DNA of 64,000 bases from positions 1,627,058 to 1,691,057 of the forward strand of contig OX638318.1 in the NCBI GenBank assembly GCA_951812585.1, written 5' to 3'. Under the pieces are notes generated by a model. The model had not been told where the DNA came from and ran no database searches. It saw only the letters and a program-made list of their open reading frames with translations. The DNA comes from Rhodothermales bacterium. Its GTDB lineage: Bacteria > Bacteroidota > Rhodothermia > Rhodothermales > Bin80. Made by a program: the position numbers and the translations under genes. Positions 44,209 through 56,019 of this stretch are shown here, piece by piece (positions within the stretch are counted from its first letter, which is position 1; each line of letters starts with the position of its first letter).

Positions 44209-44247
44209 TCCTAGTGCCGTGCCCAAGGCGTACACGTACGCAGCATG

Positions 44248-44330
44248 TGCCGGAGGTGGGACTCGAACCCACACGTCCGTTGGGACACAGGTTCCTAAGA
44301 CCTGCGCGTCTGCCATTCCGCCACTCCGGC
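44248..44330 (-). tRNA. tRNA-Leu (anticodon UAG)
   Basis: The minus strand starts GCCGGAGTGGCGGAATGGCA and ends with the complementary CTCCGGC plus discriminator A. The anticodon arm gives CAGGTCTTAGGAACCTG, with TAG between ct and ga. A long variable arm follows (TGTCCCAACGGACG) and then T-arm GTGGGTTCGAGTCCCAC. All stems close, and the long variable arm fits class II leucine tRNA. CCA is not encoded. It lies between msrB and the S46-like gene, opposite in orientation. Confidence 0.95.
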
Positions 44331-44368
44331 TGGAGCCGCTCTATCCATCATGTGCACGGATTGTTCCG

Positions 44369-45466
44369 TTGAAACGCTTTGGGCTGCTGCGTCTAAGTAC
44401 ATGCATAGGCGTGCTGGTGATTGCTCTGGTCAGCACTAGCCATGCCCAGAGCCCCGTTCAGTGGACGGTGGGCATGCATCCCGCGCATCCGGTCGACACC
44501 ACATGGCTGGACAACCTCCAGATGGGCTCCGTGCGCATCGGAAGCTGCTCTGCAGCGCTGGTGACGGCTACCGGACTTTTGGCCACGGGCTACGAATGTG
44601 CCCACCGCCATGTGCGCTCGGCCTGGCGCGTGGAGCATGTGCCCCTGGATAGCGGTTTCTATGCGCAGGACCTTTTCGAAGAGCGACGGGTGCCCGCACT
44701 GTTTGCAGACCACCTGCTGCATGTCAGCGAGGCCACCGCGACCGCACTGCCAGACACCACATGGGAGCAGGATGGTGGGCGCTTTGTGCGGGAGGTAAGA
44801 CCGGTCGCGGACAGTACGCACTTTCTTGCGTACACCTACCAGCGCTACGATGATGTACGTGTGGTCATGATGCCGGAACGGGCGGTTGCCACCTTTGGTG
44901 GAGACCACGCCGCGGACATCTATCCACGATACGGCTTGGCGTTTGCTTTCCTGCGCGTCTATGACGCAGAGGGGGGTCCAGTGGTGACCGAGAAGTACTT
45001 GCCGTTCAGCACAGCCGACATCATCCCTGGCGCGGTGCTCTACAGCATCGGATTCGCGGATCAGGTACCGGAGATATCTTCCGGGACAGCCGCAGGGTAT
45101 GCATACAACGGGACCAGGGCCCCGCCCCATACGACGCTCTTTGGGCTTTATGACCTGCACTATTCCCACAGGACGGGCTCCGCATGGCACCTGCCGGCAC
45201 CGTGGCTCGCGGCGCGCCGCGCTATGGATCTCTCAACGCAGCTCAATGCGGCCGTTACCGCGCCGTGCACGCCCAACGGTGCACCGGTGATCAGCATCGA
45301 CCTTGAGCTCCAAGGCGTAGCTTATGATCAGACCGCTACTGCCGAGGGGATGCGCTGCATCGTCGTAACGGCCGCGGGTATCTACGAAGCGCTGCGTACA
45401 CGCTATGATGCCGTGCCGCTGCTTTATGAACTGGAAGAAGAAGGACTGGATGAGTATGCGCCGTAG
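44369..45466 (+). CDS. S46-peptidase-like protein lacking catalytic residues and helical domain
   Basis: About 365 residues if a TTG at 44369 starts it (LKRFGLLRLSTCIGVLVIAL...SHAQ gives a signal peptide). Aligned to its neighbour, the LTNHHCA block is LATGYECA (both His lost). RYALDLAFFRVYD is RYGLAFAFLRVYD (Asp to Ala), and GGNSGSPLL is CTPNGAPVI (Ser to Asn). The about 300-residue helical domain between the barrel halves is missing, with YSIGFADQVPEI joining straight to AGYAYNGTRAPPHTTLFGLY. It therefore looks like a non-catalytic paralogue, possibly a chaperone or regulator. Its stop overlaps the start of the active gene by 11 nt. The start codon is uncertain. Confidence 0.8.
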   Translation: MKRFGLLRLSTCIGVLVIALVSTSHAQSPVQWTVGMHPAHPVDTTWLDNLQMGSVRIGSCSAALVTATGLLATGYECAHRHVRSAWRVEHVPLDSGFYAQDLFEERRVPALFADHLLHVSEATATALPDTTWEQDGGRFVREVRPVADSTHFLAYTYQRYDDVRVVMMPERAVATFGGDHAADIYPRYGLAFAFLRVYDAEGGPVVTEKYLPFSTADIIPGAVLYSIGFADQVPEISSGTAAGYAYNGTRAPPHTTLFGLYDLHYSHRTGSAWHLPAPWLAARRAMDLSTQLNAAVTAPCTPNGAPVISIDLELQGVAYDQTATAEGMRCIVVTAAGIYEALRTRYDAVPLLYELEEEGLDEYAP

Positions 45467-47624
45467 CACCGTGCTGATCTTTGCACTCTTGATCGGGTGC
45501 AGCGCTCCGCACGAGGTTGCGGTAGTGACGCAGCGTGCACCGCGTGTGGAGGCGGTGCAGCCTGCATCCGGTCCGGCAATTGAGACTCCGTTATTGCCGC
45601 CCGTCGTTGCACAGGCTGGTCGGTTTGACGGGGGTAAGATGTGGACCTTTGACAATCCGCCTTTGGCGTATTTTCAAGATCGCTACGGGCTGGATGTGGA
45701 TTCCCTGTGGCTTGCCCAGGCGATGCAGGGTGCGCTGCGATTTGGCAATCAGTGTTCAGCATCGTTCGTGTCTGGTAACGGCCTGGTGCTGACCAACCAC
45801 CACTGTGCGCGCGCCAGCATCACAAAGGTGAACGAAGAAGGAGAGGATCTCCTGCAGGATGGGTTTTTGGCGGCAACGCAAGAAGAAGAACGCAAGGTTA
45901 CAGACCTGCATGTTGAGCAGCTTATACGCATTGAAGACGTTACGTCCAGCGTTCTGGCCGCCGGGCGCAGGGTGCGGGGCGACGATGAACAAGCACGGGT
46001 GCGTGCGTCCAGGATCGCAGAGATCGAGCGCAACCGGACCCGGCTGGTCGCTGCCGAAGACTCTTCGCTCCGCGTCCAGGTAGTGGAACTGTTCAGCGGC
46101 GGACGGTACGCGGCGTACACGCTGCGACGGTATGACGATGTGCGCCTGGTGATGGCACCCGAAAAGGCTTTGGGTTACTTCGGCGGCGAAACCGACAACT
46201 TTACGTATCCGCGCTATGCGTTGGATCTGGCGTTCTTTCGTGTGTACGATTCGTCCGGCAAGCCCTACGTAACCGAGGACCATTACCAGTGGAGTACGGA
46301 CGGCACGTCGGAAGGTGATGTCGTGTTTGTAGTAGGCAATCCCGGCGCTACGAGTCGCTTGGGCACTGTTGCGAGCCTTGAGCATGCGCGCGACCACTCG
46401 CTGCCCCTCCAAGTGGCATGGCTTGAGAAGCGCGTGGACGCCCTGGATCCTTTCCGGGAAGATGACGCGGCGGGCAACGCCTACTTTTCGTTGAGCAACA
46501 GCCTGAAGTCTCTCCGCGGTCAACTGGAGGGCCTGGCGGATGGGCGACTGGTTGCGCGCCGTGGCGGGGACGAGCGGCGACTGAAGGAGGCTGTCGCGGC
46601 CTCGGATTCACTTACAGACCTTTACGGCAACCTGTTCACCGACATCGAGGAGCTGCAGTACTCCAAGCGTGCCGAGATCAGCCGTTCCCAGGCTTTTGCA
46701 TTCTTCGGTACATCTCTCGGGTCGCGCGTGCTGACACGCGCGCTTTATGCATACGTTTACGCTATGCTCAAGCGCCGGGGCTACACGTCGGAACAGGAAT
46801 TCGCCGAAATCCGCACGGAGGCGATGGAATTCGAGAGCCTGCCGCACGAGGCCGAGGTCGCGCTGGTAGCCCTGCGCCTTAAGGATATTCGCGACGCGCT
46901 CGGAGAGAACGACCCGTCGGTGCGGCGTATCACCAGCGGCCAGCCCATTGACAGCGTGGCGGCGCGGCTCATCGCCGCTACCGCTCTGATGGATACCACC
47001 GGACTTGATTCGCTGCTGCGCGGCAGCTATCTGAGTAGCGACGATGCAAGCGTACCAATCATTGAGGTTCTGGCACCGCTGGTACTTACGGCTCAAGGCC
47101 AGGCCCAGAGCTTCGGAAATCGGGAGGAGCTTCTGACAGCCAAAATAGCGCAACTGAAGTTTGCGCTAGACAGCACCGGTGTGGCCCCGGACGCTTCCTT
47201 TTCCTTGCGCCTCGCCGACGGCATCGTCAAGGGATACAACTACAACGGCACTCGGGCACCCGCCTATACCACCTTTTACGGCTTGTACGACCACTATTAC
47301 GCCTACCACAGCGTCAGCTTGGAGTGGGACCTGCCTGATCGCTGGCTTTCGCCTCCGGACGCTATGGACCTGTCCGTACCGCTCAATCTGGTCAGCACCA
47401 ATGACATCACGGGCGGAAACTCGGGATCCCCGCTGCTTAATCGGGACCTTGAGATTGTCGGCCTGGTCTTTGACGGCAACATTGAGTCGCTGCCTAATGT
47501 GTTTCTGTATACAGACCAGACGGCGCGGGCCGTCTCTGTGGATTCCCGCGGCATTTTGGAGGCCTTGGAGCATATCTACGAAGCTCACCGCCTCGTGGCC
47601 GAGCTTACCGCGCCGTCCCCTTAG
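45456..47624 (+). CDS. S46 family dipeptidyl-peptidase, DPP7-like
   Basis: 722 residues. The lipoprotein-type signal MRRSTVLIFALLIGC has Cys at 15. Mature N-terminus MWTFDNPPLAYFQDRYGLDV is family-typical. Chymotrypsin-fold triad: His in LTNHHCA (about 115-116), Asp in RYALDLAFFRVYD, Ser656 in GGNSGSPLL. The residue 18 after the Ser is Gly, the position that is Gly673 in DPP7 and Arg673 in DPP11 of P. gingivalis. A DPP7-like preference for hydrophobic P1 is therefore inferred. The helical domain lies between about 310 and 600. Start chosen as ATG 45456, overlapping the upstream gene; an ATG at 45450 is also possible. Confidence 0.9.
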   Translation: MRRSTVLIFALLIGCSAPHEVAVVTQRAPRVEAVQPASGPAIETPLLPPVVAQAGRFDGGKMWTFDNPPLAYFQDRYGLDVDSLWLAQAMQGALRFGNQCSASFVSGNGLVLTNHHCARASITKVNEEGEDLLQDGFLAATQEEERKVTDLHVEQLIRIEDVTSSVLAAGRRVRGDDEQARVRASRIAEIERNRTRLVAAEDSSLRVQVVELFSGGRYAAYTLRRYDDVRLVMAPEKALGYFGGETDNFTYPRYALDLAFFRVYDSSGKPYVTEDHYQWSTDGTSEGDVVFVVGNPGATSRLGTVASLEHARDHSLPLQVAWLEKRVDALDPFREDDAAGNAYFSLSNSLKSLRGQLEGLADGRLVARRGGDERRLKEAVAASDSLTDLYGNLFTDIEELQYSKRAEISRSQAFAFFGTSLGSRVLTRALYAYVYAMLKRRGYTSEQEFAEIRTEAMEFESLPHEAEVALVALRLKDIRDALGENDPSVRRITSGQPIDSVAARLIAATALMDTTGLDSLLRGSYLSSDDASVPIIEVLAPLVLTAQGQAQSFGNREELLTAKIAQLKFALDSTGVAPDASFSLRLADGIVKGYNYNGTRAPAYTTFYGLYDHYYAYHSVSLEWDLPDRWLSPPDAMDLSVPLNLVSTNDITGGNSGSPLLNRDLEIVGLVFDGNIESLPNVFLYTDQTARAVSVDSRGILEALEHIYEAHRLVAELTAPSP

Positions 47625-47890
47625 GCCGTACTGCGCTGCAAGGTCTTGCCGAAGGGGAGCGCGTTACGCCGTGAAGGCTGGCACTGGCGACAGCAGACCC
47701 TTGGCAGCAACCAGTGTGCAACAGTCGTCGCCCTGCTTGCGTACGCTGTACAACCAAGGGTCTGCCATAGAGGGCCTGCTAGTTTGCGCCGAGCCAATGA
47801 GCGCCGCATGGATCGGCGCAAACACATGACTACAGCAGTCAGCGCCAGCGGCCGTCCGGACAGTTCGATGCGATGCTGGTACCAGGCCTT
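47625..47890. other. Gap between the S46 gene and the patatin gene
   Basis: 266 bp without a clear gene. Some small frames run through but carry no recognisable motif. It is a likely site for the promoter of the patatin-barrel operon. Confidence 0.35.
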
Positions 47891-49036
47891 ATGACATCGC
47901 GCACCAGCACCGGACAGCACGAACGCCAGATCGGCCTGCTGCTCAGTGGGGGCGGAGCCCGGGCAGGCTACCAGGCTGGCGTGCTGCAGTACATGGGGGA
48001 GCTGGCACCAGAGTTCACGGTACCGATCATAACGGGTGTATCGGCCGGTGCCATCAATGCAGCCTTCCTGGCGAGCTATCCTGGACTCAAGGAAGCCTCT
48101 CGGCTGGTTGAACATTGGCAGGAGCTGGACGAACGGCAGGTGTTCAAGGCTGAGTCGCTGCTCTCGCTGGTGCGGCGGTTTTCACAAGGAGCACGTGACC
48201 CGAGAATCTATGGCGCATCCGATGCGCTCTTGGATACCGCGCCGCTGAAGGCGTTTCTGGAAGCGCGTTTGCCTTGCAAAGATGGCGTGTTGACCGCCAT
48301 CGGGGACAACATCGCGCGCGGCACGCTTTTTGCCGTATGTGTTACTGCCACCCGCTTTTCGACGGGGCAGACTGTGTCATGGGTGCAAGGCCGAGGCCTG
48401 GAGGAATGGAAGCGACCCACGCGCGTAGGCGTGCAGGTGGAGCTGACGCTTGACCACTTTCTGGCTTCGACAGCACTGCCACTAATCTTCCCTGCCATCC
48501 GTATAGATGGTGACTGGTACGGCGATGGCGGCATACGGCTGCGTGCGCCGTTGGCACCGGCCATACACCTGGGCGCCACCGACATCATTGTGATTTCTAC
48601 CCGCAAGCAGCGTGCCGCAGCGGAAGTCGCGATTCCTGTTACGACCGGCTATCCACCGGCGGCTCAGATCGTAGGCATGCTGCTTAATGCCGTGTTCTTG
48701 GACACGCTGGATCACGATGTGCTGACGCTGAAAAGGATCAATGCCCTCGTCCGACGTATTCCGCCCGCCCAGCGCTTGGGATTGCGCGAGATCAGGTGCC
48801 TGTGTATTGATCCTTCGGAGGACCTGGGTAAGCTGGCCAGCGCGTACAAGCTGCGCGCGAAGGGAGCCATTCGCCTCCTCAACCGTCTACTGGGCACCGA
48901 ACACACCGAGAGCCCCGACTGGCTCAGTTTGCTGCTGTTCAATCCCGAATACCTGAGTGCCACTATTCAGATAGGCTGGGATGACGCGCGGCGCATGAAA
49001 GACACCATCGAATCATTCTTGGAGGCAAGATCATGA
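47891..49036 (+). CDS. Patatin-like phospholipase
   Basis: About 381 residues from ATG at 47891 (MTSRTSTGQHERQIGLLLSG). Patatin Ser-Asp dyad fold: oxyanion loop GGGARAGYQAGVL, nucleophile elbow GVSAGAIN with G-x-S-x-G, and DGG in WYGDGGIRL. The central LPLIFPAIRIDG segment fits bacterial patatins. No signal peptide is seen, so a cytoplasmic or inner-face lipase is likely. The last bases overlap the next start as ATGA (49033-49036), indicating translational coupling to the outer-membrane barrel protein. Confidence 0.9.
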   Translation: MTSRTSTGQHERQIGLLLSGGGARAGYQAGVLQYMGELAPEFTVPIITGVSAGAINAAFLASYPGLKEASRLVEHWQELDERQVFKAESLLSLVRRFSQGARDPRIYGASDALLDTAPLKAFLEARLPCKDGVLTAIGDNIARGTLFAVCVTATRFSTGQTVSWVQGRGLEEWKRPTRVGVQVELTLDHFLASTALPLIFPAIRIDGDWYGDGGIRLRAPLAPAIHLGATDIIVISTRKQRAAAEVAIPVTTGYPPAAQIVGMLLNAVFLDTLDHDVLTLKRINALVRRIPPAQRLGLREIRCLCIDPSEDLGKLASAYKLRAKGAIRLLNRLLGTEHTESPDWLSLLLFNPEYLSATIQIGWDDARRMKDTIESFLEARS

Positions 49037-50412
49037 CATCAATGACATCAATGGCAACGCACCGCAGTGCCCTTTCATGGCTGGGGGCTCTGCTGACGGT
49101 TGTGTATGTGTCACTGGCACCGAATGCCACGGCCCAGACCCAAAGTGATGTGGCATCCGCGCCCGAGGGCCAGACAGTCTCATCACAAGCCGCAGCGCAG
49201 CCTTATGTACCACAGCGCACCTTGTGGCGCAGTATGGGCTTTGGTATGGCAACGGACCAGCGAGGAATAGAGACGGATCGGGACTTGCGGATGCGCAGGG
49301 TTCAATTCGGCGGCGCGGCCTGGTACAACCGCGTGGAAGCGCTGCATCTCGGCCTCAACATGACGGTCCGTTCAAGTCCGTACTTCACCTTGCACGGAGG
49401 CGGTGGCAGCAGCATTGGCCTCTCCAAGGCGGACCGATGGACCGGGCACATCTCGGGCACGCTCACTTCCCTGGGTGATACCCGTGTCTTTGCCAGCAGC
49501 GGCTACCAGACCCGAACAGCACGCCGCTATGGCGCCACCAGTTATGTTACGCCCTTGGCCAATTCCGTGGCGATGCTGACCGGCGGTGATGACTATTTTG
49601 ACTACTACCGCAGCGAAGGCTTCTATGCATCCGCCGGCATCGATCTCAAGGAGATTCGCACGCGACTCACAGGAACCTACCATGACGAGCGCCATGCGTC
49701 TTTGCCCCTTACGACCAGCTACGACCTGTTCGGCGCAGCGGCGCTGCGCGACAATACCGCCATAAACGCAGGACACATGCAGACCGTATCGGTCCAGTTG
49801 GCCGTTGGCGACCCCGTATCGACGGACACGCCGATTGCATTGCGGAGCCTGGTGCTTGGCGCGGAGTCCACCCTGCCCGACACGGAATTCAGCTTCAGGC
49901 GATACTGGGCCGATGCGCGGTGGCGACAGAAAACGCTGAGATGGTCCGGCCATCAAAGAGCCATGCTGGATCTTCGGCTTGTCGCGGGCACCAGTACGGG
50001 CCATCTGCCGCTGCAGCGGGCGTTCATCGTGGAGTCGGGCCTTTCGGTGTTTACCACCTTCGGTGCGTTGCGCTCTGTTTCAGGGCGACCATTCGAGGGC
50101 GAACAGGTCGTGGCATTCTTCTGGGAGCACAACTTTCGTTCAATGCTGACGGATATCCTCGGATTTAAATGGCTCTTTGGCAGTACCGACTGGATCATTT
50201 TTGGCGGGCATGCTCGCACTTGGGCCCCTGCGCAGGGGCTTGGACCATACGCAACCACCTTTGTGTCCAGGATTACAAACGGCGCCTACCACGAGCTTGG
50301 TGTTTCGCTTGGTGGAATAATGCACGATGTAAGCAATGTAAGACTGGACTTCGCCAAGCCGCTGCATGGTGGCCCCGTACGCATTGGGCTGGGGCTCAGC
50401 AAATCCTTCTAA
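49033..50412 (+). CDS. Outer-membrane barrel protein, barrel-only DUF5686 paralogue
   Basis: 459 residues. The signal peptide ends near ATAQ (about 35). The rest is barrel-like and ends LGLSKSF. It aligns with the C-terminal halves of the next two proteins: YNRVEALHLGL, DYFDYYRSEGFYASAGIDLK, SLPLTTSYDLFG, FRRYWADARWRQ, LPLQRAFIVESGLSVFTTFG, VAFFWEHNFRSMLTDILG, and IFGGHARTW. It lacks the N-terminal regulatory-like and DUF5686 soluble domains of those neighbours. Starts overlapping the patatin stop, 12 nt before the next gene. Function unknown. Confidence 0.75.
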   Translation: MTSMTSMATHRSALSWLGALLTVVYVSLAPNATAQTQSDVASAPEGQTVSSQAAAQPYVPQRTLWRSMGFGMATDQRGIETDRDLRMRRVQFGGAAWYNRVEALHLGLNMTVRSSPYFTLHGGGGSSIGLSKADRWTGHISGTLTSLGDTRVFASSGYQTRTARRYGATSYVTPLANSVAMLTGGDDYFDYYRSEGFYASAGIDLKEIRTRLTGTYHDERHASLPLTTSYDLFGAAALRDNTAINAGHMQTVSVQLAVGDPVSTDTPIALRSLVLGAESTLPDTEFSFRRYWADARWRQKTLRWSGHQRAMLDLRLVAGTSTGHLPLQRAFIVESGLSVFTTFGALRSVSGRPFEGEQVVAFFWEHNFRSMLTDILGFKWLFGSTDWIIFGGHARTWAPAQGLGPYATTFVSRITNGAYHELGVSLGGIMHDVSNVRLDFAKPLHGGPVRIGLGLSKSF

Positions 50413-50424
50413 AGGCCCACCAGG

Positions 50425-52896
50425 ATGCGTAACGGCACTTGGCGCAGTAATGACGTTGCGCCCAGCGTACATGGAGCATGCCGGCACCTAGGCATTGCGG
50501 GGGGCTTGTGTCTGCTTGCGGGCATCGCCTTGGCGCAGGCCGTCATGGGCCAGGTGATCCATGGTCGCGTGGTGGACGTTGCGACTGGCAGCCCGCTGTC
50601 AGCGGCTTCCATTCAAGTAGACGGGACGTATCGCGGCACCATCACCAATGTGGACGGGTTCTACGAACTCAAGGTGGATGCATTGCCCGTGACACTGGTG
50701 GTGCGCTTTCTGGGCTATGAGACTATCTACAGGGTCGTGGAAGATGACGCTGCGCTGGAGCAGCACTTCGCGCTTGTGCCTGTTACCTACGTGTACGCGG
50801 AGATCACGGTAAGTGGCGAAGATCCTGCAAATGCCATCATGCGCGAGGTGATCGCACGAAAGAAGCAGTGGCGCGCCTCACTGGAAACCTATGAAACGCA
50901 GGGATACAGCCGATTCAGCATCGAAAGCGATACCAGCGTGGTCTGGGTGATGGAGTCCGCATCGACGGCCTACTGGGATCGGGAGCGGGGCATGAAGGAG
51001 CGCATCACGGGCAACCGCTCCACAGCCAATTCGATCCTTGACGATACGGTTATGCCCGTGGCAATGACCGTGGCCAACCTGTATGACGACAACGTCTTCA
51101 TCGCGGGTCACAATCTGATGGGTGTCACGCATCCCGATGCACTAAGCAGCTACGACTTTACGCTGGAGGGAACAAGGATGCTGGACGGTGTCACGGTGTA
51201 CAGCATTGCCGTCGCACCCAAAAATCGGCTTTTCAGCGGTTTTCACGGACGCGTGTCGGTCCTTGACAGCGCCTTCGCGATGGTGGATGTCGAGCTGCAG
51301 CCAGGCGAATCGTTTCTGTTTCCGCAGCCGATACAGCGATACGAAGTGGCGTACCGGCAACAGTTTTCCTCCTTTGGCGGAGACTACTGGATGCCCGTGG
51401 ATTTTCGGTCTGAAGTCTTGGCCAAAATCAGCATGCCGGGGCTATTGAGCTTTCCCGCATTCAAGATCGACCATGTGGCCCGCTTCACCGATTACCAGGT
51501 CAATGTGCCGGTGCCTGAGGAGCTGTACGCAGAGGAGCAGCGGATTGAAGTAGACTCCGCGGCCGTGGAAGAGGGTCAGGTGTTCGAAGAGCCTGGGCTT
51601 GTAGTCCCGCTTACTGAGGCGGAGACGGCCGCCTACAACAATCCTGACATTGAGGACGACTTCGAGGAAGCCTTTACGCCTGGGGGCCTGCTCGGCCGTG
51701 CCATGCGCTTCTCGGGCGGCGGCTTGTCGGATTCTGAAGGTGAGGAAAACCGCACGGACACTACGCGTAACGCAAGGGTCTTGAATCTTCTGCGCCCGAT
51801 GCTGCAGGAAGTACGGTATAACAGGGTTGAGGGCTTGCACCTTGGAATTGGATCGGACTGGGACTTCGCACGGCACTTCAGCGTGGGCGGCAATGCCGGT
51901 TGGAGCTCCGGCCTTCGGGGCAGCGATCGCTGGAATTGGCACGCGTCGCTGGGTGCGGCCTCGCCGGGCGATGTGTCCGTGTTTGCCGAGGGACGATATG
52001 AGCATACAGCGGCATCGCGCTACGAGAAGGGTGGCTACCACTACTGGTACAACAGCGTCGGGATGGTGCTGGGTGGTGCCGACTACTTTGATTACTACCG
52101 GCGCGAAGGCATAGCGCTTACGGCAGGCGTAGCGCGGTCCGAGCCGCATATGCGGCTGGCAGGCACCTTTAGGGATGAAATGCACCAGTCCCTGCCGATG
52201 ACGACCAGCTACGACGTACTCGGCAGGCCGCCCTTGCCGGTCAATCCCGCCATCGTGCCAGGGCAAATGCAGTCGGTGGAGATCGCCCTTGCCATTGGTC
52301 GGAGGCAGTTCTTTTCGGGCCCCACCGGTAATCGCACGCTGACGTTGGGCGCAGAACTCAGCACACCGCGGTCCGACTACGCTTTTCAGCGCTATTGGAT
52401 TGATGCTTCGTGGCGACAGATCACCTTCGGTAGTCGGCGATTCTTGTCCGCGCTGCTGCATCTTCGATTCAAGGCAGGCATTGGCAGCGACAACCTTCCA
52501 CTCCAGCGCGTGTTCATCGTTGACAGCCGCTTAGGGGAGTATGCACAGTTTGGGACCCTGCGCGCAGTGCAGGACCGGCCGTTTCAGGGAAACGATATGG
52601 TTGCGTTTTTCTGGAAGCACGACTTCAGGACGATGATCTTCGAGGCCTTGAGGCTCGGCACGGTAGCCCGAAGGGGATACGGCATTCAGCTCTTCGGGGG
52701 GCACGCCAGAACCTGGTTTCCCGGGCGACAACTCTACGGCGACAGGCAGTCCCCGGTGCGCTTGGGCACGAATGGGTCGTACCACGAACTCGGTATCTCT
52801 CTAAGCGGCATCTGGGGCTTGCTTCGCATTGACCTGGTGAAGCGATTAGGCGATGGCCCTTTCCGCGTTACGTTCGGAACGTACAGCCCATTCTAG
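50425..52896 (+). CDS. DUF5686 outer-membrane protein with carboxypeptidase-like regulatory domain
   Basis: 823 residues. After the signal (about 20-42) comes a carboxypeptidase-regulatory-like domain (IHGRVVDVATGSPLSAASIQ, TITNVDGFYELKVDALPVTL). The DUF5686 domain starts with PANAIMREVIARKKQWRASL and ETYETQGYSRFSIESDTSVV. A barrel follows (about 465-823) with YFDYYRREGIALTAGVARSE and a terminal Phe (FGTYSPF). This family is widespread in Bacteroidota with unknown role. It sits 12 nt after the barrel-only paralogue, and its stop overlaps the open frame of the next gene. Confidence 0.82.
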   Translation: MRNGTWRSNDVAPSVHGACRHLGIAGGLCLLAGIALAQAVMGQVIHGRVVDVATGSPLSAASIQVDGTYRGTITNVDGFYELKVDALPVTLVVRFLGYETIYRVVEDDAALEQHFALVPVTYVYAEITVSGEDPANAIMREVIARKKQWRASLETYETQGYSRFSIESDTSVVWVMESASTAYWDRERGMKERITGNRSTANSILDDTVMPVAMTVANLYDDNVFIAGHNLMGVTHPDALSSYDFTLEGTRMLDGVTVYSIAVAPKNRLFSGFHGRVSVLDSAFAMVDVELQPGESFLFPQPIQRYEVAYRQQFSSFGGDYWMPVDFRSEVLAKISMPGLLSFPAFKIDHVARFTDYQVNVPVPEELYAEEQRIEVDSAAVEEGQVFEEPGLVVPLTEAETAAYNNPDIEDDFEEAFTPGGLLGRAMRFSGGGLSDSEGEENRTDTTRNARVLNLLRPMLQEVRYNRVEGLHLGIGSDWDFARHFSVGGNAGWSSGLRGSDRWNWHASLGAASPGDVSVFAEGRYEHTAASRYEKGGYHYWYNSVGMVLGGADYFDYYRREGIALTAGVARSEPHMRLAGTFRDEMHQSLPMTTSYDVLGRPPLPVNPAIVPGQMQSVEIALAIGRRQFFSGPTGNRTLTLGAELSTPRSDYAFQRYWIDASWRQITFGSRRFLSALLHLRFKAGIGSDNLPLQRVFIVDSRLGEYAQFGTLRAVQDRPFQGNDMVAFFWKHDFRTMIFEALRLGTVARRGYGIQLFGGHARTWFPGRQLYGDRQSPVRLGTNGSYHELGISLSGIWGLLRIDLVKRLGDGPFRVTFGTYSPF

Positions 52897-55252
52897 CGCC
52901 ACTACTGCGCGCATTGTGGCCCCGGCAGCCGTGAAGCTGCATTCAGCCCCAGATCTCACCTGGCCATGGGCCCGCGGAGTCTGGCTCCTGGTTCTTCTGG
53001 GGACCTATGCGGTTCCTAGCCAAGGCCAGGTTGCGGTCCGCGGCCTGGTGCGCGATGCCACTACCCTGCAGCCATTGCCTGCCGTGCACATCATCCTGGA
53101 AGGCCAGGCCCAGGGAACGATTACCAACAAAGGCGGCCAGTTCGAGATTGTTCTCCCTTCGCTGCCTGCTGCCCTTCTTGTGCGGCACCTGGGCCATGAG
53201 ACGTTTCGCGTCGTTATTGGGCCCAACGACGCGCGGGAGATCGTTGTAGACCTTGTCCGGACTGTTTACGAGCTGGATGCGGTCATCGTGGTCGGAGATC
53301 TGTTCGCGGAGAACCTTATGCGAAAGGTCCTCGAGCGCAAGCGGCAGCGCCGCAGGCACCTCCGCAACTGGCAAGCGCAGGGGTACTCGCGCATCACACT
53401 CACGCGCAAAGACGCAGTGGTGCTGGTATCCGAACATGTGTTCGATGCGTACCGCGATGCCGCGCGAGGCGCCCGGGAGGTGATTCGGTCGCGCCGCGAA
53501 ACGGCTGGTTTCTACGAGCAAATGGGCATCGATATCATTCCCGCTGACTTCTCGGAGGACTATGTACCTATCCAAGGGCTCTCGTTCATTGGTCCTACGC
53601 ATGCAGATGCCCTGAAGCACTACCACTTCTCTTTTGCGGGCACCCGGAAGTATGCCGGCCAGACGGTCTACGACCTGTACATCGCCCCCAAGGAAGGCCT
53701 GCAGGCCGCTTTCGTCGGCAACATAGCCATCTTGGATAGTGTGTACGCGCTTGTGGAAGTAGACCTGAGGCCGGCGCGACATGTTACGTTCGCGCCGGAG
53801 ATTACGCGCTGGAGCGTAGCCTACCGCCAGCAATTTGCCGCAGTGGATTCCTTTTGGCTGCCCTTGGGACTTCATGCAGAAGGATCGATCCACATAGTGC
53901 CCAAGGCCTCGCGGGTAGGCCCCGCGGGCTTTCGGCAAGTAGCGCTCTTCAAGGGTCATGCGGCCAATCAGCCGCTGCCTGCCGCACCGTATGAACAGGC
54001 CACACAGGTGGTGGTGGACGAGCCGTCCGTGTTCGCAGACGATCTGTTCCTCATGGGACGCGACATCATTGCGCTTATGCCCGCGGAGACTGTGGCGCTG
54101 GACGCGTTGACCCTGCAGCGGCTTACGCTCCGCGAGGCGCTACCACCAGTCGGCGTTGCCCAGGCTCCACGCGTGGCAGCGTCGCTCAGCGAACAGCCTC
54201 AGTTCGTGTGGCCCCTGATATGGGGCGTCGAGCCGTGGGTGCAGTTTAACCGGGTGGACGGCTACCTTGCTGGGGCGGGCTATGCCGTGGATCGTGGGCG
54301 TTGGAGCGCTGGCGGGCGCCTGGCGAAGAGCACGGGCGATAATGGTACGCGCTTCGCCGCGCGTTATTCTCGACATGTGGGTAATCGCCTCAAAACCATG
54401 TGGGCAGTGGGCCGAGAAATCGCGCCGCAACGGCCTTCCAGGATCTACAGCCTTGCGCTTAACAGTGCCGCATCGCACGCTGGATCTGGAGACTATTTCG
54501 ACTACTACTGGAAGTGGTGGAGCCGCGCACGCGCCAGTGTCTCGTTCCCGAAGGTGCGCATCGGTGCCGGTCTGCGCGCAGAAAGTCACCTCAGCTCGGA
54601 GCAGTCCGTACAGCGAGCGTGGCCGCTCAACAACAGCTTCCGGTCCAATCCGCCTGTTACGGAGGGATACTGGTGGATTGCAGAGCTTTCGGTGCATACC
54701 GGCGATCCATGGCAACCCTTTCGGATGGGTCCCACGCATCACGCGGAGGCGCGCCTGGAGTACGCCTTGACCGCCGACGCCCCGTCCTACGGCAGGTACG
54801 AAGTCTGGCTGGATTCGCACCTCAAGACATTACTTCGACGGCGCCCGCGCCCTATGATATTGGCGATCCGTTCGATGGCTATCCGCACCAGCGGTGCGCT
54901 GCCGGCCCAAGGTCTGGTCGTTATCGAGGGCACCATGGGTCCGGTCGCTGCCCTGGGGGTACTCCGCTCCCTGCGTTCCGCACGGCTTGTGGGGCACCAC
55001 GCGGCGGGATTCTTCTGGGAGCATGATTTTCGGACCGTATTGTGGGAAGTGCTGCGACTGCGCCCGTTGTATGAGCGGCAGACCGGTGTCACCCTTGGCG
55101 GCGGGCACGCGCGGACTTGGCCTGGTACCATCCACCATGAAGTGTCGCTGTCGGTCACAGAGGTGTTCGGCAGTCCGTTTCGCGTTGACGTTACGCGCCG
55201 ATTGGACCACCCGGGCTGGCATGTGAGTATAGGATTGTCTCGGATGTTCTAG
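52853..55252 (+). CDS. DUF5686 outer-membrane protein, second full-length paralogue
   Basis: 799 codons from 52853; a GTG at 52931 just before LTWPWARGVWLLVLLGTYAV would give a better signal peptide and avoid a 44-nt overlap. The regulatory-like domain reads VRGLVRDATTLQPLPAVHII. The DUF5686 start is ENLMRKVLERKRQRRRHLRN followed by WQAQGYSRI. The barrel shows GDYFDYYWKWWSRARASVSF and ends LSRMF. It is more diverged from the other two, with the (A)HxHTWP-like GGHARTWP box conserved. Last gene of the patatin-barrel operon. Confidence 0.8.
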   Translation: MALSALRSERTAHSSATTARIVAPAAVKLHSAPDLTWPWARGVWLLVLLGTYAVPSQGQVAVRGLVRDATTLQPLPAVHIILEGQAQGTITNKGGQFEIVLPSLPAALLVRHLGHETFRVVIGPNDAREIVVDLVRTVYELDAVIVVGDLFAENLMRKVLERKRQRRRHLRNWQAQGYSRITLTRKDAVVLVSEHVFDAYRDAARGAREVIRSRRETAGFYEQMGIDIIPADFSEDYVPIQGLSFIGPTHADALKHYHFSFAGTRKYAGQTVYDLYIAPKEGLQAAFVGNIAILDSVYALVEVDLRPARHVTFAPEITRWSVAYRQQFAAVDSFWLPLGLHAEGSIHIVPKASRVGPAGFRQVALFKGHAANQPLPAAPYEQATQVVVDEPSVFADDLFLMGRDIIALMPAETVALDALTLQRLTLREALPPVGVAQAPRVAASLSEQPQFVWPLIWGVEPWVQFNRVDGYLAGAGYAVDRGRWSAGGRLAKSTGDNGTRFAARYSRHVGNRLKTMWAVGREIAPQRPSRIYSLALNSAASHAGSGDYFDYYWKWWSRARASVSFPKVRIGAGLRAESHLSSEQSVQRAWPLNNSFRSNPPVTEGYWWIAELSVHTGDPWQPFRMGPTHHAEARLEYALTADAPSYGRYEVWLDSHLKTLLRRRPRPMILAIRSMAIRTSGALPAQGLVVIEGTMGPVAALGVLRSLRSARLVGHHAAGFFWEHDFRTVLWEVLRLRPLYERQTGVTLGGGHARTWPGTIHHEVSLSVTEVFGSPFRVDVTRRLDHPGWHVSIGLSRMF

Positions 55253-55404: not shown

Positions 55405-56019
55405 CTATGCGGCTGCCAGCACCGCCAGCGCCATGGCTGCGATGCCTGGAGCTACCAGGTTGTCGTTGGCGCGTCCTGGGAAGGCCTCGGCGGCGGTGGC
55501 ACAAGCCGCCGCGGCCACGCCGTGCCACAGCACAATCCCGGGCCACAGTGCCAGGATCAAAGTCCCCACTGCCATGTACGCCAGGGAGCCCTCTATGGTG
55601 CTGGTGCTGCGGGGCCAGCGGTGCCGTCCAAGCACATGCCCGGTCAATGCCGCAATGGCATCGCATACCAGATGCATGGCCAAGGCCGCAGCAGCCATGT
55701 GGACCGGGAACAGCAGCACCAGTGTTACGGACGAGAGGTGCACCCAGGTGGCACCGTTGACTATGACCTTTCCGGGTACGCTGGGAATCTCCGACGGGCG
55801 CATGAGGGATCCCACAGTGCGGCGAATGAACGCAGCAAATCGCACCGAGCGCGCCCGCAGCATGTCACCGCAGGCCGACAGTGCACAAAGGGGGATCAGA
55901 ATCCAGAGCGACTGTTTACCCAGCAGCATAATCAGGCCAGGCAGCGCAAGGGAAGCGAAGTGCAACAGCTTCCGCCCGAACTCGCTAGGGGCTGAACCCA
56001 TAGAAGACTCCATAATCAC
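55405..56019 (-). CDS. Diacylglycerol/polyprenol kinase-like membrane protein
   Basis: 204 residues, about five to six membrane segments. SEFGRKLLHFASLALPGLIM carries the RK..H motif near the N-terminus. The later D-A-IAALTGHVLGRHRWP plus STIEGSLAYMAVGTLILALW (D..A...G...GR..., T.EGS) is the signature of CTP-dependent dolichol/phytol/diacylglycerol kinase-like proteins. The substrate cannot be told. Start is ATG at 56019, divergent from the RluA gene with 8 bp between. About 150 bp (55253-55404) between its stop and the preceding operon holds no gene. Confidence 0.78.
   Translation of the reverse strand: MIMESSMGSAPSEFGRKLLHFASLALPGLIMLLGKQSLWILIPLCALSACGDMLRARSVRFAAFIRRTVGSLMRPSEIPSVPGKVIVNGATWVHLSSVTLVLLFPVHMAAAALAMHLVCDAIAALTGHVLGRHRWPRSTSTIEGSLAYMAVGTLILALWPGIVLWHGVAAAACATAAEAFPGRANDNLVAPGIAAMALAVLAAA

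Follow-up and report, generated by a model that had tools for sequence, protein, structure and literature searches.

In a 64,000-nucleotide (nt) stretch of the genome of a Rhodothermales bacterium (assembly GCA_951812585.1, contig OX638318.1, positions 1,627,058 to 1,691,057 of the forward strand; hereafter the window), a gene for a patatin-type phospholipase is followed by a gene for a bare outer-membrane barrel (protein P0002) and by genes for two full-length proteins of the family DUF5686 (PF18939), namely protein 1 (P0003) and protein 2 (P0004). Structure models and intermediate sequences identify the DUF5686 barrels as Omp85-type barrels with the predicted fold of BamA, TamA and Sam50. 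We tentatively read the four genes as an operon, specific to one bacterial family, that serves lipid housekeeping in the envelope and is built from Omp85-type proteins that lack POTRA domains; this role, like everything beyond the anatomy of the locus, we infer.

The stop codon TGA of the patatin gene overlaps the ATG of the barrel-only gene (ATGA, 49033-49036), and a Shine-Dalgarno-like GGAGG at 49021-49025 lies 7 nt 5' of that ATG. The barrel-only gene is separated by 12 nt from the gene for P0003, which overlaps the gene for P0004 by 44 nt only if the latter starts at ATG 52853; a start at GTG 52916 or 52931 abolishes the overlap. An earlier account made from the letters of the DNA (the sequence-only reading) had proposed the gene coordinates at 47891-55252, the coupling, the 12-nt gap, the overlap and an alignment of the first barrel with the barrels of the other two proteins. 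The coordinates, the coupling and the gap are confirmed, and the overlap hinges on the uncertain start of P0004. The alignment is confirmed as well, since P0002 is 45% identical to the C-terminal barrel of P0003 over 363 amino acids (aa) (E 1e-89) and 26% identical to that of P0004 over 286 aa (E 1e-18), a likeness far beyond chance. P0003 and P0004, which are 31% identical along their length, pass the family cut-off of 39.2 bits (P0004 with 43.1 bits). In contrast, P0002, whose barrel is homologous to theirs, is related to the family by the barrel alone, has no match in Pfam or NCBIfam scans and hence falls below that cut-off. All three proteins have signal-peptide-like starts.

Predicted fold and domain architecture of the DUF5686 proteins

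The model of P0003, built from 57 sequences, has a mean predicted local distance difference test score (pLDDT) of 85.5 and a predicted template-modelling score (pTM) of 0.78. The best Protein Data Bank (PDB) matches of its residues 450-821 are in BamA, TamA, SAM and TOC entries (Foldseek, best E 1.8e-9), and its best Z score is 19.2, to BamA, with 296 residues aligned and a root-mean-square deviation (rmsd) of 5.0. The model of P0002 (pLDDT 80.9, pTM 0.78) places sixteen strands within residues 89-455, of which strands 11 and 12 are joined by a long loop; the low-confidence residues 1-85 comprise the signal-peptide-like start and a linker, with no domain ahead of the barrel. This model matches BamA with a Foldseek E of 1.1e-9 and gives its best Z score, 19.4 (291 residues aligned, rmsd 4.2), to a chain of the SAM complex that is by length Sam50. 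The best 50 matches in each of the four fold-search lists for P0002 and P0003 are all BamA/BAM, TamA, SAM or TOC entries. The structure prediction that the sequence-only reading had proposed as a check has accordingly been run; by predicted fold, both proteins have the 16-strand barrel of the Omp85 type. The matches listed for the whole models are barrels only, so these searches hardly test the other domains.

Three barrel-only proteins, taken from a longer list in the order, bridge the two families. Specifically, L062:6801-8048 matches PF18939 positions 332-487 with its first half and PF01103 (Omp85) positions 134-307 with its second half, L085:1-1386 likewise matches both families, and so does L063:6398-7693, with PF18939 under the cut-off. 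A profile of these three proteins matches the DUF5686 barrels with 99.8% probability over 255 columns. The VRG[FY] motif in loop 6 is characteristic of the Omp85 superfamily; the corresponding motif is VRGY in L062, VRAY in L085 and IRSY in L063, and the segment of DUF5686 that aligns with it is mostly FGxL[RK][ST], where 51 of 58 sequences have R or K. The three barrel-only proteins are unlinked.

In front of the barrel, P0003 and P0004 carry a CarboxypepD_reg domain like the N-terminal domain of the SusC/RagA TonB-dependent receptors. DUF5686 differs from these receptors in having no further TonB-receptor match and an Omp85-type 16-strand barrel; the SusC/RagA barrel has 22 strands. In P0003 the front domain is followed by a middle domain modelled as one long helix and then ten long strands. 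Pfam scans of P0002, P0003 and P0004 find no POTRA family, and by this measure none of the three appears to contain the POTRA domain of which BamA, TamA, TamL and PlpD have at least one. TamL (PMC12045153) and the BamA of Bacteroidota (PMC12611786) share with DUF5686 the Omp85 barrel and the phylum, but are described there with POTRA where DUF5686 has CarboxypepD_reg and the helix-strand domain.

Heinz and Lithgow (2014, PMC4104836) define the Omp85 superfamily by its barrel and name ten subfamilies, including patatin fusions and the noNterm proteins, in which the barrel stands without an N-terminal domain. The barrel-only proteins L062, L063 and L085 fit the noNterm description, and P0002 agrees with it in having no domain before the barrel; however, P0002 appears to derive from DUF5686 by truncation, adjoins its parent and carries FGALRS instead of a VRGY-type motif. 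In the account given there of the ten subfamilies, none has a CarboxypepD_reg architecture, and our literature search found no paper that mentions DUF5686 and no printed link between it and Omp85. Pfam gives no function for the family, which is common in Bacteroidota: of 41 genomes sampled throughout the phylum, 27 have a match over the cut-off. The cultivated Roseithermus sacchariphilus carries two DUF5686 genes, at locus L111. An Omp85 fold in which a SusC-type and another periplasmic domain replace the POTRA region would give DUF5686 a concrete hypothesis, namely insertion of clients into the outer membrane or movement of lipids or lipoproteins there.

Origin of the bare barrel

A tree of 24 barrels pairs DUF5686 protein 1 of this species with that of its congener G001 and places P0002 as their sister (support 99/97); the alternative in which P0002 groups only with protein 1 of its own genome is rejected (p 0.016). 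The tree omitted the DUF5686-2 group, four near-copies and two distant barrel-only proteins; a FastTree of about 41 rows that includes the omitted groups places P0002 identically. Because P0002 is sister to protein 1 of both species, a tandem duplication before the species split and a later loss of the periplasmic domains would account for the bare barrel. Judged from these sequences, the gene for DUF5686 protein 1 was duplicated long ago, and one copy, truncated, became the bare barrel, which has lost the two front domains and kept a signal-peptide-like start. A candidate relic of the bare barrel in the patatin-DUF5686 gap of G001 was dropped, as its best tblastn E value, 0.002, was equalled by 37 of 1000 shuffles.

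An independent bare barrel occurs in another family, in genome G029. It is 471 aa long and begins with a signal-peptide-like start; its closest relative, a DUF5686 protein of 798 aa, is encoded immediately downstream of it. This is the only other tandem bare barrel among 80 named DUF5686 loci.

Gene neighbourhood and possible function

In the bacterial family to which the genome belongs, the usual gene order is S46 peptidases, patatin, DUF5686 protein 1, DUF5686 protein 2 and pseudouridine synthase. DUF5686 lies directly 3' of patatin in 13 of 15 family relatives; the two genes overlap by 4-11 nt in nine of these 13, and the start codon is uncertain in the other four. In one relative, G003, the patatin gene ahead of DUF5686 is broken by frameshifts. 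In G005, patatin is lost, a 764-aa reverse-strand frame interrupts the first DUF5686 gene (L031:7988-10282), and the second is in fragments. Among the other named DUF5686 loci, no patatin adjoins DUF5686 in any of 69, two of which (L088 and L089) are in this family, nor in any of 20 DUF5686 loci from across the phylum, and none of 15 patatin loci outside this family has DUF5686. These counts come from six-frame open reading frames or tblastn, with a distant patatin as positive control for the patatin search near DUF5686; in 54 of the 80 named loci the sequence extends at least 2 kb to either side, and the named and unnamed sets share members (L087, for instance, is G001) and are therefore not independent surveys. 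Within the loci surveyed, the adjacency of patatin and DUF5686 is found in one bacterial family only. The outcome that would have spoken against the sequence-only reading, an adjacency of patatin and barrels in this genome alone, was not observed for the full-length barrels, whose adjacency 13 of 15 relatives have retained, but was observed for the bare barrel, which lies beside patatin in none of the 15.

The patatin scores well above the PF01734 cut-off of 27.7 bits and contains the motifs GGGAR, GVSAG and DGG; the glycine-rich oxyanion motif, the nucleophile motif GXSXG and the aspartate motif DGG are present in all 25 aligned patatins. By inspection, none of the 25 has a signal peptide, and the enzyme should therefore act in the cytoplasm, while P0002, P0003 and P0004 begin with signal-peptide-like starts. 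Secretion of the patatin through a barrel is thus unlikely.

In the housekeeping reading that we favour, a cytoplasmic lipid hydrolase of the patatin type would be translated together with Omp85-fold proteins of the outer membrane. The full-length DUF5686 proteins would work on the outer membrane from its periplasmic side; the Omp85 barrel would thin the bilayer there, and the middle domain would receive a client, which may be a lipid, a lipoprotein or an unfolded protein. The bare barrel could be a partner barrel without receptor domains that works with its full-length neighbour, while the patatin, on the cytoplasmic side, would clear or recycle acyl lipids, and the coupling would match its amount to that of the barrels. 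Taken together, the genes would serve envelope lipid housekeeping in this single family, not patatin secretion. Deletion of plpD raises many phospholipids (PMC11116518), and by analogy the patatin-barrel operon may have a lipid role.

Several observations weigh against this reading. Compared directly as profiles, the DUF5686 barrels and five PF01103 proteins from the order failed to match (2.2%), and a profile scan finds no PF01103 match for P0002 or for the barrel of P0003; the link between DUF5686 and Omp85 therefore rests on fold and intermediate sequences. The congener G001, a draft genome that is 95% complete, has no bare barrel at the locus or elsewhere. Another relative, G004, keeps DUF5686 protein 1 without patatin and has also lost the second DUF5686 gene. 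Elsewhere in Rhodothermales, DUF5686 adjoins genes that read, by sequence, as recA, recX and mutS, and in many Balneolaceae (e.g. L119, L125, L136, L137 and L140) a 347-aa protein that reads as an ATP-binding cassette (ABC) transporter ATPase is encoded directly upstream of it. Across 59 genomes, patatin (present if the best E is at most 1e-60) and full DUF5686 (present if a match over the cut-off lies near the profile start within a reading frame of at least 600 aa) occur together in 37, patatin only in 8, DUF5686 only in 10 and neither in 4 (Fisher p 0.45), with the broken DUF5686 genes of G005 and the broken patatin of G003 both scored as present. Co-occurrence was dropped as a proof of partnership.

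It is almost as likely as lipid housekeeping that the genes merely share a transcript, the DUF5686 pair having landed behind patatin in this family and the bare barrel being a neofunctionalised duplicate. Restriction of the adjacency to one family and the lack of significant co-occurrence argue for such an absence of partnership, as does the finding that 11 of 15 patatin loci outside this family have S46 peptidases nearby, so that the S46-patatin neighbourhood is the older one. However, the patatin-DUF5686 junction, often overlapping, is kept across several genera, which exceeds what gene-order drift would lead one to expect, and the loss of patatin in G005 goes along with breakage of both DUF5686 genes. 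The bare barrel is quite improbable as a decaying, functionless fragment. Its confinement to one genome would agree with decay, as would the loss of five of 27 near-invariant positions, including SG for RR at 305-306 and LTD for PFE at 372-374, against two lost in protein 1; but its frame has stayed open over 459 codons despite about 0.6 changes per site, 22 of the 27 positions are kept, it has its own signal-peptide-like start and ribosome-binding site, its 16-strand model is confident, and the duplication predates the split from G001.

Two further explanations give the barrels a transport function. Export of the patatin through the bare barrel, as in a type Vd system split over two coupled genes, is hardly credible, although a patatin and an Omp85-type barrel expressed together are the ingredients of PlpD and other PL-Omp85 proteins. 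Here the two are separate polypeptides, the patatins lack signal peptides, there is no POTRA in the Pfam scans, and the bare barrel is missing in all 15 relatives; moreover, PlpD is the type Vd prototype, and its own patatin domain has been found to stay in the periplasm, a result with which PMC11116518 challenges the secretion claim. Signal peptide, POTRA and taxonomic range were the grounds on which split type Vd secretion was rejected. The parallel with patatin-barrel fusions that the sequence-only reading had drawn is apt in fold, because the barrels are of the Omp85 type, and fails for secretion; likewise, of the envelope lipid or secretion system it had suggested, patatin secretion through a barrel is contradicted by the missing signal peptides, the single-family adjacency and the co-occurrence counts. 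It is less improbable, though still unlikely, that DUF5686 is an outer-membrane exporter of lipids or lipoproteins, in which a LolA-like carrier is fused to an Omp85-type gate. The helix and ten strands of the middle domain resemble the layout of LolA and LolB (PMC11885536), a LolA_like profile matches weakly at matching strands (P 1.9e-4, 48%, 34 columns; unrelated pairs as controls, P 0.19-0.75), and a LolD/MacB-like ATPase, named from sequence reading, precedes DUF5686 in L115 (Salinibacter) and L117. Against this, LolA proper scores low (P 7.9e-3, 5%) and a profile search of the PDB with the middle domain finds no LolA; a LolA-like middle domain is a weak lead only. A bolder and somewhat more doubtful proposal is that DUF5686 forms, in Bacteroidota and neighbours, a widespread, unrecognised Omp85 branch that has a lipid-receiving domain in place of POTRA and translocates lipids or surface lipoproteins across the outer membrane; bare-barrel paralogues would repeatedly arise beside their parents and form hetero-oligomeric gates, and a cytoplasmic patatin would be wired to the machine in this family.

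Feature coordinates and neighbouring genes

Table 1. Features of the patatin-DUF5686 locus (window positions) and the bare-barrel paralogue of G029 (locus positions).
Feature	Position	Strand	Basis or remark
Patatin-type phospholipase gene	47891-49036	+	PF01734 84.3 bits, E 1.6e-23
Shine-Dalgarno-like GGAGG and ATGA stop/start overlap, patatin to barrel-only gene	49021-49036	+	sequence
Barrel-only gene, protein P0002, 459 aa	49033-50412	+	signal-peptide-like N-terminus, linker, predicted Omp85-type 16-strand barrel
P0002 barrel, residues 89-457	about 49297-50403	+	alignments and model
FGALRS, loop 6 segment of P0002	50059-50076	+	aligns with VRGY-type motif of order-wide barrel-only Omp85 proteins
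DUF5686 protein 1 (P0003)	50425-52896	+	PF18939 73.7 bits, cut-off 39.2
P0003 CarboxypepD_reg domain	about 50551-50802	+	family scan
P0003 middle domain, helix and ten strands	50806-51510	+	model
P0003 Omp85-type barrel	about 51772-52893	+	model and fold search
DUF5686 protein 2 (P0004)	52853-55252	+	same family and front domain as P0003; start codon uncertain
Two S46 peptidase genes upstream of patatin	44219-47624	+	older neighbours of patatin
G029 bare-barrel paralogue	L102:8426-9856 (same place as L042)		directly upstream of full-length sister

The patatin frame is also open from an ATG at 47873, upstream of the start given in Table 1. The only other patatin of the genome lies outside the window (G000:C1:286077-286808, minus strand, locus L188) and is a ThiF-JAB-patatin fusion, an arrangement reminiscent of defence of the CBASS type.

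Upstream of patatin, the frame of the first S46 peptidase opens with a GTG (44219) whose frame runs into a tRNA-Leu of the opposite strand (44247-44330), so translation probably starts further downstream; the encoded protein falls far short of the family profile in length. Downstream of the locus, the minus strand at 55405-56019 encodes a hydrophobic protein of 204 aa with no family match in Pfam and NCBIfam scans, which we take to be reminiscent of the dolichol/diacylglycerol kinase type.

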